This document shows positions 2 through 39,734 of a DNA stretch of 64,000 nt, one piece after another. The first letter of the stretch is position 1, and each line of letters starts with the position of its first letter. The position numbers and the translations under genes are program-made. Source of the DNA: Synergistaceae bacterium (GTDB taxonomy: Bacteria > Synergistota > Synergistia > Synergistales > Aminobacteriaceae); the NCBI GenBank assembly GCA_017451025.1, contig JAFSSM010000032.1:1-64000 (forward strand), read 5' to 3'. Under the pieces are notes generated by a model. That model ran no database searches, was not told the DNA's origin, and was given only the letters and a program-made list of their open reading frames with translations.

Positions 2-265
2 GAGTACACTACGGAGGATAACCAGGAAGTGAACGTAGCGGCGTACATGGAAGCAGGAGTCGAGTATGCACCTGTAATCACGACCTCTGAGGTTGGGACG
101 GAAGAGCCTGGCACAGACCAGCCCGGCACGGACCAGCCCGGCAATAACAACGAGCCTGGCGGCGAAGACGGCGAGGACTGGAACGCGAGCGGCGGCGGAT
201 GCGACGCAGGATTTGGAGCGTTGGCGCTGGCGGCCCTTGCGGCAATGATAGCGAAAAAGCGTTAG
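2..265 (+). CDS. C-terminal end of a Synergist-CTERM surface protein (partial)
   Basis: The frame is open from the left edge to the stop at 263-265, so the GTG at 29 is not taken as the start; the gene begins upstream. The visible part has a short acidic segment, then a low-complexity linker rich in Pro, Gly, Asp and Glu with a repeated PGTDQ unit, then a Gly-Gly-Gly-Cys motif, a hydrophobic stretch of about 17 residues and a Lys-Lys-Arg end. This matches the Synergist-CTERM protein-sorting tail: spacer, GGC box, transmembrane helix, basic end. The mature protein is probably anchored at the cell surface after processing. Nothing can be said about the missing N-terminal domains. A hairpin terminator follows. 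Confidence 0.85.
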   Translation, partial: EYTTEDNQEVNVAAYMEAGVEYAPVITTSEVGTEEPGTDQPGTDQPGNNNEPGGEDGEDWNASGGGCDAGFGALALAALAAMIAKKR

Positions 266-2528: not shown

Positions 2529-2562
2529 GAACAAATTCTCCCTTCTTGTGTGGATGGCGCAA

Positions 2563-2591
2563 AGAATAGTATATGCAACTTTTTTTGTCAA
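2563..2591 (-). promoter_or_regulatory. Sigma-70 promoter of the isc operon
   Basis: A -35 box TTGACA (2586-2591) and a -10 box TATTCT (2563-2568) are separated by exactly 17 bp on the minus strand. Transcription would start near 2556, about 28 nt before the iscR GTG. This also supports the shorter iscR start. Confidence 0.85.
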
Positions 2592-2617
2592 GATTAATGC
2601 GATTATGTTTATGTGAT

Positions 2618-2645
2618 TTGAATGGTCCTGATTGTTTGATATAAT
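2618..2645 (+). promoter_or_regulatory. Promoter of the beta-helix surface protein gene
   Basis: Extended -10 TGATATAAT (hexamer 2640-2645) with a -35-like TTGAAT at 2618-2623 and a 16-bp spacer. AGGAGG at 2665-2670 is the ribosome binding site for the ATG at 2681. The promoter is divergent from, and only about 30 bp from, the isc promoter. Confidence 0.7.
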
Positions 2646-2680
2646 CCTGGACAAATTCTTTTACAGGAGGTTATTTTGTC

Positions 2681-4621
2681 ATGAACACTAAGCGTTTTTT
2701 GGCGGCATTTGTTGTTTTCTGCGCGGTTTGCCTTGTCGGTTCTACGTGTTTTGCGCAAGGGGGGGGGGGGCATAAAATATTACGTTAAGACCCCTCAAAA
2801 CGGAGGCAGCGACTCTAACGACGGGTTGAGCTGGAACACTGCATTTGCAACATTCGGCCGCGCAATAGAAGCTGCATCATCAGGAGATGAGATTAACGCG
2901 GCGGCAGGCACTTACTACGAAAACCTTACCATTCCGAAGAAACTATCACTTTATGGCGGCTATCCTGCTTCTGGCGGGGACGAAAGAAACTTCACGAACA
3001 ATCCCACAAAAATTGACGGCAATGAAACTGACAGCGTTATAACTATTGAGGCACAGGCGGCAATAGATGCTTTCATCATCGCTAACGGCAGAGCTGAATG
3101 CAAAGATGAAGGCGATGGCGGCGGCGGAATTTCTGTCAAGGATACAGACAGCGTCACAATAACCAACTGCACAATAATCAACAATTCATCAATTGGAGCA
3201 GCTAATTTCAGCAATGGCGGAGGGCTGTATATCTATAATTGCAACGATGCTTCAATCATCGGGTGTACATTTTCGGGCAATTCTGCAGAGGGTTATGGAG
3301 GAGGAGTGTACCTTATTTCCTGCGATAAATTTTATGTAAGCGGCTGCACTTTTTCGGAAAATTCTGCCAGCGCGGACGGAGGAGCTATTCGCGGACGCAG
3401 ATTAACCGTCATTACACTCAAAGATAGTTCATTCTCGGGAAATGCAGCACATGAAGGCGGAGGAATTTGTTCTGAAGGAAATATTGCGCTTGCTAACTGC
3501 ACATTCTCTCAAAATTTGTCCCAAAATGACGGCGGAGCTGTTTATGCTTCAGGAAATCTTGAGGCTGTTGATTGCAGATTTTCCAAAAATACCTCAAATT
3601 TTGGTGCTGGAGCTGTTAAGGTTTTAGGGAATAATTTTACGGCGACTAACTGCACATTCTCCGAGAATACAGCAAAATTTGCAGGCGGAGCTATTGATGA
3701 CTATAGAGAAACCGTAAGCATAGTTACAAATTGTGCGTTCACGAAAAATTCTGCAGATGACAGCGGCGGAGCTATCAGTGCTTCGGGAAATTTCGCGGTT
3801 AATGAATGCACATTCTCTAAAAATTTTTCCAAAGAGGGCGGCGGTGCTGTAAGTAATCATGGCACAATTGCAATCACAAACTGCACATTCACGGAAAACT
3901 CTACGAATGATGACGGCGGAGCAATTTCTGACTACAATAACATTACGGTCAATAACTGCACATTTGCAGAAAATTCCGCAAAGAATCATGGTAAAGAAAT
4001 TCGTTTCACAATATTCACGAAGTATGCTGAACTAAACAACTCAATCATCTGGAACAATCAGGGCAAGTATATAGATGTGGATATAGTTTTTGACGTAGAG
4101 GATGAGAAGCGGCAGTTAATCATCAACAATTGTGCATTGAAGCGTGATGCGTTTGAAGATTTTGAGGCAGATAGCAATTTCCAGAACAATAATCCTGTTT
4201 ACATCGAAAATTTTGCGTCAAGACATCAAGTTTCTAACGTTACTGTTAGCAGTGTGACCACAAAGTTTTTTTGCTCAATGCGAGCGATACAGCCTTAATT
4301 AATGGAGGCACAAGCAAAAATGTTCCAGAAAAGGACCAGCTTGGAAAATCACGTAACACACAGAAGCCAAGTATAGGAGCAGTTGAATACTCTTCAGGCT
4401 CAGGCGATAACCCGGCACCCGACAGCGGGAACACAACTCCCGGTGCTCCGAGCAATGAGGACAACAGCAACACAACCCCAGAAACTCCGAGCGATGATAA
4501 CAACGGCAACACAACCCCAGGCACTCCAGACAGCGGAAACACTGTCGGAGGAGGCGGAGGCTGTAATTCATTTTGCAGTCTGCTCAACCTTGCAATACTC
4601 TTCACATTAAAACGCAGATAA
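2681..4621 (+). CDS. Pmp-like beta-helix surface protein, interrupted at a G12 tract and a T7 run
   Basis: The true start is the ATG at 2681 (good RBS), encoding a 26-residue signal peptide ending CFAQ. Right after it a run of 12 G throws the frame off and the signal-peptide frame stops within six codons. With 11 G the frame continues into a long right-handed beta-helix of repeats such as TNCTFSENSA and DDGGAI, like chlamydial Pmp proteins and other secreted parallel beta-helix proteins. A second break lies at T7 (4266-4272); one more T joins the helix to a Thr/Pro/Asn linker and a Synergist-CTERM tail (Gly-rich, Cys, hydrophobic segment, KRR). The restored product is 646 residues. As sequenced, neither the full nor the anchored form is made. 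This is either a phase-variable locus in the OFF state with an extra mutation, a pseudogene, or homopolymer assembly error. Confidence 0.8.
2759..2770 (+). repeat. Homopolymeric G12 tract at the signal peptide cleavage site
   Basis: Twelve consecutive G. As written the signal-peptide frame ends in HKILR-stop. Removal of one G (or addition of two) joins signal peptide and mature protein in frame through a Gly4 stretch. Tracts of this length are typical sites of slipped-strand mispairing. Confidence 0.9.
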
Positions 4622-4690
4622 ATTTATTCATGCCCTCTCTTTATGGATATATAATTTCAGCAAAACAATTCACAAGGAGAGGGTTCGTTT

Positions 4691-5989
4691 ATGATTTCAC
4701 GTGAGCTTTACGACAATTACACCGCTATTTTGCGTGAAGAACTCGTCCCGGCTATGGGATGTACTGAACCAATCGCAATAGCTTACGCCGCCGCAAAAGC
4801 ACGTTCAGTTCTTGGCGAGGAGGTTACGAGTCTTCGCGTGTCATGTTCCGGAAATATCATCAAGAACGTCAAGGGCGTAATCGTTCCCAATTCAGGAGGC
4901 CAGAAGGGAATAGAGGCAGCCGCAATTCTCGGTGCAGTCGGCGGCAATTCAGATAGAGAGCTTGAAGTTATAGCAGGAGCTGACGACAAAGCCAGAGCAC
5001 TCACACGCAAACTTGTGCGCGAAAAATTCTGCAATGTCTCCCTTGCTGAGGACGTGCCCAACCTCTACATTGAGGTTGCTGCTCAGGGAAAAGCCCACTC
5101 CTCAAGTGTCAGGATCGAGAACCACCACACAGAGATAACCCGGATTTCGCGCGACGGAGTCATCGTGTACGAACATGCTCCAGCAGAAGCAGAGTCCCCG
5201 TCATCCTCAGCGGACAGAAGCAAAATGAAACTCTGCACCATTCTGGAATACGCCGACAGCGTGAAGATTGAGGATGTCGAGGAAATGTTAGCCCGTCAGA
5301 TTGAGTACAATTCCCGCATATCTCAGGAAGGCATCGACAACAAATGGGGAGCGTGTGTCGGCAAGACCATTATCGAGACGTGGGGCAACGATGTACGTTC
5401 GTGTGCGTGTGCCCGTGCCGCCGCAGGAAGTGATGCCAGGATGAGCGGATGTCCTCTTCCCGTAATCATAAATTCAGGGAGCGGCAATCAGGGAATAACT
5501 GTAACGATGCCGGTAGTTGAATACGCAGAGCAGTGGAGAATTTCCAGAGAGAAGCTGTATCGATGTCTGGTTGTGAGCAACCTGGTGAGCATATACATCA
5601 AGCACTATATCGGGTCATTGTCGGCCTTTTGCGGAGCAGTGAGTGCCAGTGCCGGGGCGGGTGCGGCGATAACTTACATGGCTGGCGGAGATTATGCCAG
5701 TGTGGGACGGACAATCACGAACACTCTGGCGAACGTCGGCGGGATTGTCTGCGACGGGGCGAAGCCGAGCTGTGCGGCCAAGATAGCGTCGTCAGTACAT
5801 GCAGCGATTCTTGCGCACTACATGAGCATGAACGATGACGAATTTCGTGGCGGCGAGGGGTTCGTTGAGGACGACGTGGAGGAGACAATCAAGAATATGG
5901 GGTATATCGGCAAGATAGGCATGAAGGAGACCGACAGGGAAATTCTGAATGTGATGATAGATCGTGTTGATGTTGAGTCGTGTCTGTAG
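4691..5989 (+). CDS. cyuA: L-cysteine desulfidase (CyuA/UPF0597 family)
   Basis: A 432-residue member of the UPF0597/serine dehydratase alpha-like family that contains the Fe-S-dependent L-cysteine desulfidases, which convert cysteine to pyruvate, ammonia and sulfide. The N-terminal signature MGCTEP (C24) and the late Cys-containing motifs IVCDGAKPSC and SAFCGAV are present and fit cluster ligation. The length is normal for the family. AAGGAG lies ahead of the ATG. It stands alone between the surface protein and a weak terminator at 6000. Substrate is inferred from family; some relatives may act on other amino acids. Confidence 0.82.
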   Translation: MISRELYDNYTAILREELVPAMGCTEPIAIAYAAAKARSVLGEEVTSLRVSCSGNIIKNVKGVIVPNSGGQKGIEAAAILGAVGGNSDRELEVIAGADDKARALTRKLVREKFCNVSLAEDVPNLYIEVAAQGKAHSSSVRIENHHTEITRISRDGVIVYEHAPAEAESPSSSADRSKMKLCTILEYADSVKIEDVEEMLARQIEYNSRISQEGIDNKWGACVGKTIIETWGNDVRSCACARAAAGSDARMSGCPLPVIINSGSGNQGITVTMPVVEYAEQWRISREKLYRCLVVSNLVSIYIKHYIGSLSAFCGAVSASAGAGAAITYMAGGDYASVGRTITNTLANVGGIVCDGAKPSCAAKIASSVHAAILAHYMSMNDDEFRGGEGFVEDDVEETIKNMGYIGKIGMKETDREILNVMIDRVDVESCL

Positions 5990-32047: not shown

Positions 32048-32081
32048 ATTATACTACTCAAAACTACTTAGGGGGGGGGGG
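32048..32081 (-). promoter_or_regulatory. Pilin promoter with a C11 tract at the -35 position
   Basis: On the minus strand a perfect -10 TATAAT (32048-32053) is preceded by 17 bp and then by eleven consecutive C (32071-32081), which occupy the place of the -35 box. TTTTG flanks the tract on the far side. The distance from -10 to the pilin ATG is about 105 nt. A change in tract length would move the flanking TTTTG relative to the -10 and could switch or tune transcription. Confidence 0.6.
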
Positions 32082-38820: not shown

Positions 38821-39734
38821 ATTCTAAGTAGCTTCTGATGATGTGCGACATAAAACTTGACGGCAATGTTTCATTCAACGACGCGGTTTTCCAGACTAGT
38901 TTATGGATGCTGCTTACTTCCTCGAAATATTTCATGCGTTCTTCAGAGTAAACCTCATCATTTTGTATAGCACGGTGAAGTGCGAATGCATTTTCATGAG
39001 GAACAAAAGGCATATTATGCAATTCGTCTTTATACAGTTCTGCCGCTATATTGGCCAGCTTCCTGTACATAAAGTAGTGAATCAGGAAGTTATGCTTCTT
39101 CCAGTAAGCAAAATGCAAATCCCTTATAACCTGAAGTATATGACTGCCAGGATCAGAAACCATGAACCAGTTAGAGACTGATATATCGGTTTCACTATAG
39201 CGAAAAAAGAACAGCGGTAGATGCATAAGGTATTCATAATTGCGCCCGGTGCACAAAACGGTAGAGTCAATCCATGTTCCTCCGTGTTCAATCAATAACT
39301 GAAGCCTCACAATATCGCTGTAATGTGTGTGAGAGATTATGCCTTTCTCGTGTTTCCTGTCGATGTAGTCGGGAAGAGTTACCCACTGTTGAAGGTTATT
39401 TTTGTCGAGGGTGATAATTTCCTTGTCGGGATGCCAGCGTCTCAGCGATGCCAGGCAGGCCTTGCAAATGTCAGGAGCTTCGTCAACTCCCTGATACCAG
39501 AACCACCAGATGACGTTTTTATGCCCCCCCCCCCCCCTGTAATTTGTACTTATCCTTGAGTGCGTAAACAAGACTACCGTATTTGCGGCGAAGATACCAA
39601 TCCGTGAACCTATTGCCCATTCTGTTGAAAGCAGGTACAAAGCTGAATACCTTCCGCGTCAAATCCCAATATCTGCCTTCAGCTATCATCCTCTTTGCTT
39701 TACTGAGATACAGCATAAATTTCTGTACAGTCAT
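38819..39734 (-). CDS. Capsular-polysaccharide-type glycosyltransferase interrupted by a G14 tract
   Basis: The gene starts at the ATG at 39734 (MTVQKFMLYLSKAKRM). After 66 codons a run of 14 G (minus strand) puts the ribosome into a frame that stops within five codons. With 13 G the frame continues through Gly4-His-Lys into IWWFWYQGVDEAPDICKACL, SHTHYSDIVRLQLLIEHGGTWIDST and a C-terminal helix-rich region, giving a 304-residue protein of the capsular polysaccharide synthesis/GT32-like family. The SDIVRLQLLIEHGG stretch is the donor-binding signature. The tract separates a basic N-terminal region from the catalytic domain. As sequenced the enzyme is OFF. An internal start in the catalytic part is not supported by a clear RBS. 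Confidence 0.82.
39524..39537 (-). repeat. Homopolymeric G14 tract (C14 on plus) in the glycosyltransferase gene
   Basis: Fourteen C on the plus strand, the longest homopolymer seen in the window. Loss of one G (or gain of two) opens the full glycosyltransferase frame; the present length stops translation directly after the tract. Confidence 0.9.

Follow-up and report, generated by a model that had tools for sequence, protein, structure and literature searches.

A poly-G tract as a probable phase-variation switch of a secreted beta-helix protein in a Synergistota genome, and a sequence element shared by the tracts of its genus

Introduction

Contingency loci built on poly-G tracts are known chiefly from Chlamydia and a small number of Gram-negative pathogens. 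The poly-G/C tracts of Neisseria lie in coding regions or in promoter spacers, with porA and opc as examples, and the Pmp genes of Chlamydia contain poly-G tracts. Surface-glycan genes are prominent among the phase-variable genes of Campylobacter, in which MutS and MutL are not intact as they are in the genome described here. An analysis of Campylobacter with PhasomeIt found that poly-G dominates, with ~77% of the tracts within open reading frames (ORFs) and 5% carrying C on the coding strand, that strains have 5-81 phase-variable genes each, and that tract length peaks at 9-10 (PMC6321876). Slippage in C. jejuni has been reported to be unaffected by the flanking sequence (PMC4965091). For the Synergistota, our search of the open-access literature returned no description of poly-G tracts and one paper on invertible DNA, from a species of the Synergistetes (PMC5903667).

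Here we analyse a G12 tract in the window, that is, the whole 64,000-nucleotide stretch of DNA from a Synergistaceae bacterium that was studied. Its genome carries 59 poly-G tracts, which are like the Campylobacter phasome in the dominance of poly-G, in the location of most tracts within ORFs and in having G on the coding strand. However, this set belongs to another phylum, its tracts are longer (median 12, maximum 23), mutS and mutL are present and the tracts have an upstream motif in common. As in Neisseria, there are both coding and promoter-region tracts, for instance at C35:1561, but the tract flanks share a motif. The beta-helix gene that harbors the G12 tract resembles the Chlamydia Pmp genes in its Pmp repeats (Pfam and TIGR models) and in having a G run in the gene, whereas it has no autotransporter barrel match and its tail ends in a choice-of-anchor Q-like form. 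We consider it probable (roughly 85%) that the G12 tract is a real poly-G contingency locus that acts as a translational phase-variation switch and is one of many in this genome.

Results

The G12 tract and its gene

The tract consists of exactly twelve G in the context A-G12-C, preceded by CAA (Gln, codon 26) and followed by C (Table 1). In the G12 state, translation from the ATG at 2681 reads MNTKRFLAAFVVFCAVCLVGSTCFAQGGGGHKILR-stop and ends after 35 codons, the stop at 2786-2788 being six codons past the tract. Frames computed from the same ATG run for 537-540 codons when the tract has 8, 11, 14 or 17 G, while the remaining lengths tested between 7 and 16 G meet a stop at codon 29-36. A preliminary description of this DNA had placed G12 after the signal peptide of a secreted beta-helix gene and had noted that the present length stops translation six codons on, and our reading of the sequence agrees on both points. 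Its statement that the tract follows the promoter, ribosome-binding site and signal peptide and precedes the mature domain is right, and the orthologue in the congener G024 has G7 at the same junction.

Table 1. Features of the window, with positions counted from its first nucleotide
Feature	Position	Strand	Remarks
Candidate sigma-70-like promoter, TTGAAT-16-TATAAT	2618..2645	+	Consensus scan: 10/12, TG before -10; a match is not equal to function
Ribosome-binding site AGGAGG, 10 bases upstream of ATG 2681	2665..2670	+	Read from sequence
Start and signal peptide MNTKRFLAAFVVFCAVCLVGSTCFA, cleaved before Q; 26 codons	2681..2758	+	Translation; cleavage site by eye
Upstream element TACGTGTTTTGCGCAA abutting G12	2743..2758	+	2 mismatches to TACGTAATTTGCGCAA, found before a tract of the congener G051; post hoc comparison
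G12 tract, probable switch	2759..2770	+	On: 8, 11, 14, 17 G; off otherwise
Mature right-handed beta-helix domain, Beta_helix and Chlam_PMP repeats	2772..4295	+	At G12, not in the frame of the start
T7 run at second frameshift, between beta-helix and C-terminal tail	4266..4272	+	Continuous in G024 orthologue
C-terminal tail, other frame: choice-of-anchor Q-like segment, Pro/Asn-rich linker, GGGGGCNSF...LKRR end	4271..4621	+	
Intergenic G11, C on gene strand, 127 bases upstream of pseudopilin start	32071..32081	+	
Caps_synth glycosyltransferase frame downstream of G14	38822..39523	-	Pfam PF05704, E 2.8e-61
Intragenic G14, early in capsular-polysaccharide glycosyltransferase	39524..39537	-	Off in assembly

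Downstream of the tract, 508 codons are open and the domain has no other break. Because of the frameshift at the T7 run, 11 G restores the beta-helix domain and not the C-terminus at 4621. The earlier claim that 11 G opens the frame therefore holds for the domain but not for the natural end of the protein, and a change of one unit in the tract toggles the domain but not the tail, which makes the view of one single switch incomplete. This second frameshift, overlooked previously together with the G11 and G14 tracts of the window, may be another slippery site, an error or decay, and the window copy of the gene may be decaying. The G11 tract has a TATAAT-like box 17 bases further on, and G024 also has G11 at the same site.

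Pmp repeats of the GGAI and FxxN type are present in the protein (PF02415, E 3.4e-24; TIGR01376, E 3.3e-16). A C-terminal autotransporter beta-barrel was matched neither in the window tail nor in the full 649-aa orthologue of G024, and the gene product is not a Pmp autotransporter; the earlier designation as Pmp-like thus applies to the repeats only. Although the tail end, GGGGGC...KRR, resembles the end of Synergist-CTERM proteins, the model for this 27-position C-terminal signal (TIGR04564) gave no match at 4550-4621 even at E 1. This genome has 10 Synergist_CTERM matches over the cut-off, while 14 control genomes have 0; together with the preliminary description, these counts are the basis for placing the genome in the Synergistota. 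Matches of equal score lie at window positions 188-262, at C7:188-262 and at C55:122638-122712, the first two sharing their offset near a contig start, and these are probably one repeated sequence where the assembly broke. Searching genome contigs with the beta-helix protein returned only distant beta-helix proteins from unrelated phyla and no named relative, and a search of viral contigs with the tract flank returned no match.

Poly-G tracts across the genome

The window tract has 58 companions. The genome of 2.35 Mb contains 59 G runs of 9-23, as opposed to 7 A runs with a length of at least 9. In 464 kb sampled irrespective of tracts, G/C runs of lengths 5 to 10 number 255, 54, 6, 3, 0 and 0, respectively; past the gap at 9-10, this sample has only three further G/C runs (11, 12 and 14), and its A/T runs reach at most 8. 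Tracts of up to 19 G are found within contigs.

We extracted the stretches round all 59 tracts and examined the reading frames on both sides. About 41 of the 59 are intragenic, in genes backed by Pfam or homology, and G is on the coding strand for every coding tract with a Pfam-assigned gene. The majority of the intragenic tracts lie in glycosyltransferases and other glycan-modifying enzymes. The families comprise glycosyltransferases (GT2, GT4, GT6 and GT11), Caps_synth, LicD, FkbM methyltransferases, GNAT, hexapeptide and membrane acyltransferases, a CDP-alcohol transferase, ketoacyl-ACP synthase III, AMP ligases, ATP-grasp and radical SAM enzymes and epimerases, as well as two sensor kinases, two beta-helix proteins and an amino-acid permease with its tract near the C-terminus. 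Judged from this family list, the tract set appears to be concentrated in genes for surface structures. Of the 75 two-piece coding tracts in three genomes, 27 (36%) are in frame, where about one third would be expected if length drifts.

Among the genes with a non-coding tract in front of them are those of three secreted proteins that are paralogues, of a pseudopilin, and of proteins resembling a flagellin and a lipoprotein. At C35:1561 (L081) of this genome (G000), the sequence before the lipoprotein-like gene reads TTGACA-G13-ATAGGGTAGAAT, with the poly-G between TTGACA and TAGAAT, and at C40:43464 (L087) the poly-G lies 39 bases upstream of the flagellin-like start. Both of these tracts are likely transcriptional switches. 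The three paralogous genes for secreted proteins, at C1:2073, C52:4308 and C53:2046, each have a G12-G13 tract 150-230 bases ahead of the start, and the flanks of these tracts are almost the same.

Six of the 59 tracts lie ≤42 bases from a contig end, where 0.3 would be expected within 100 bases (P ~1e-6), as if the length were mixed or hard to read there. Against reading the tracts as switches, the contig breaks can also be explained by sequencing difficulty at long G runs, and this genome has intact genes for MutS (876 aa) and MutL (575 aa), although slippage is not forbidden thereby. The intact pair also rules out that the tracts stem from a loss of mismatch repair.

Tract lengths and selection in related genomes

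Our comparison covered 43 genomes of this genus. In G024, a syntenic orthologue of the beta-helix gene occupies the corresponding position, with rrf2 on one side and the next gene on the other; its G7 is off and its downstream frame of 649 codons is open. The orthologue was found in G024 only, with both copies off; several other congeners with a readable site have no beta-helix gene there, or other cargo. The interval from rrf2 to the gene at 4691 (2534-4691) is a cargo spot in the genus: depending on the species, it is empty or contains the beta-helix gene, a methylase-like gene or small genes.

At the site of the window glycosyltransferase, the species differ in having G14 (off), G10 (off), G11 (on), GGGGTGGGGG or no tract, and at the orthologous tract the assembly of the congener G056 is interrupted by an N gap. 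Further same-site pairs between species are G12/G11 (twice), G12/G10 and G12/G9. Such differences between species are no proof of switching. That the tract could be a large inserted cassette found no support, as the tractless glycosyltransferase orthologue of G047 is similar in length.

Purifying selection acts on the frames that follow off tracts. For the doubly off glycosyltransferase pair (G14/G10), the downstream frame gave dN 0.39 vs dS 1.41, doubly off radical SAM paralogues gave dN 0.21 with dS saturated, and the beta-helix (Pmp) pair gave dN 0.64 vs dS 1.78. The constraint on the frames of doubly off genes implies that these are expressed often enough to be selected.

A shared element upstream of the tracts

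Many of the tracts are preceded by a palindrome-like element, approximately TACGTAAWTTACKTAC-Gn, with a consensus of about TRCGTAA-WW-TTAC-K-TAC-Gn. Among 163 tracts from six congeners, TACGTA was counted 43 times within 30 bases upstream of the tract and 2 times in the 30 bases beyond; CGTA(A) has its peak between -16 and -13 and TTAC between -9 and -7. In three genomes, TACGTA stands in front of coding tracts 25 times (88 tracts, 0.36 expected) and in front of non-coding tracts 13 times (40 tracts, 0.25 expected). The element is carried by 0-2% of runs of 4-8 G versus 33-78% of runs of 9 or more.

A matrix of the element trained on G000, G022 and G024, with a threshold score above 6, recognised 89% of the tracts in the held-out genome G049, 80% in G005 and 54% in G017, against 2-6% of control stretches; in G037, a member of another family, 0 of 21 tracts scored above the threshold. 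In the genome of the window the element is weaker, with 25% of tracts above the threshold and TACGTA at 14 of 59. Among 185 Synergistota genomes, ACGTA was found 3-14 bases before G9 in 34 of the 43 genomes of the genus versus 4 of the 142 others, in a count that took minus-strand match positions at more than one start, and the reversed pattern was rare.

Since the element falls in each of the three reading frames (16, 10 and 4 cases) and in non-coding flanks, it is a DNA feature rather than a peptide feature, which rules out that it is a by-product of amino-acid composition. The idea that it is a common genomic neighbour was likewise rejected, as 464 kb held 13 strong matches, compared with 3-16 for column-permuted matrices, and none before a G run.

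Discussion

The preliminary description had interpreted the tract as a contingency locus, and this interpretation gains from the set of 59 tracts, their surface-glycan gene classes, the G on the coding strand, the share of about one third in frame, the lengths that differ between species and the purifying selection downstream. We hypothesize that replication slippage would add or remove one G in the tract, and that cells of one population would pass at random and reversibly between one on frame (8, 11, 14 or 17 G) and two off frames. In the on frame, the signal peptide would be joined to an exported beta-helix protein, which may be exposed at the surface, while in the off frames translation would stop within about six codons past the tract. 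Genome-wide, a poly-G phasome in this Synergistota genus would vary surface glycans, pili, flagella and secreted proteins, presumably to the benefit of the cells.

A chance homopolymer in a GC-balanced genome is refuted by the counts. The G9 runs of the more G+C-rich relative G037 do look like background, being nearly all exactly 9, and they lack the motif, so the G9 runs of other families were not pooled as the same system; but the gap in run lengths, the 59 G runs against 7 A runs and the lengths of up to 19 inside contigs are not those of chance. Very improbable, too, is an artefact of assembly or sequencing in which the true length is fixed, for example at 11, and the count of 12 stems from a homopolymer error. 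Errors are frequent in long G runs, and the six tracts at contig ends and the N gap of G056 fit such errors. However, an error of one base cannot create a long G run here, a wrong count leaves the locus standing, and the 59 tracts lie in specific gene classes, have an upstream element in common and show same-site lengths of 14, 10, 11 and interrupted in independent genomes.

It is unlikely, though a good deal less so, that the G12 frame and the T7 frameshift have broken the gene for good and that the tract is a relic. The second frameshift would fit a pseudogene, as would the sole orthologue found being also out of frame at its tract and the lack of the gene at this site in other congeners where it can be read. 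Against this stand the 508 open codons past the tract without another break in the domain, the 649 open codons of the G024 orthologue and the dN below dS of the pair, and other tract genes share the pattern of a single break with purifying selection. Long homopolymers can cause RNA polymerase slippage, and slippage in transcription or translation on the G run could give mixed products from one DNA length, without mutation. This would suit the conservation of off genes, but it leaves the non-coding tracts in promoter regions and the drift of length between species unexplained; we regard it as rather improbable as the explanation, and it could act additionally.

The element beside the tracts is, as far as we found, not mentioned in earlier work on such switches. 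We would guess that it determines the sites at which tracts form or the rate of their slippage. That it does not depend on the frame, on the gene or on whether the context is coding may point to a dedicated mechanism, and we tentatively raise the possibility, which we hold to be somewhat less than even, that each tract tends to be built with the element and that the window tract is a genus-specific unit of programmed hypermutation. A DNA-binding, nicking or polymerase activity would then seed, extend or destabilise G tracts at the element. Alternatively, the element may be a putative binding site that is selected because it marks phase-variable genes.

If the tracts are the switches that we propose, an entire poly-G phasome would be present in a genus of the Synergistota, a phylum for which we found no such description in the open-access literature. 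The most interesting result is the genus-wide element beside the tracts, which raises a question beyond plain slippage: does a DNA sequence or a protein decide where tracts originate and at what rate they change?
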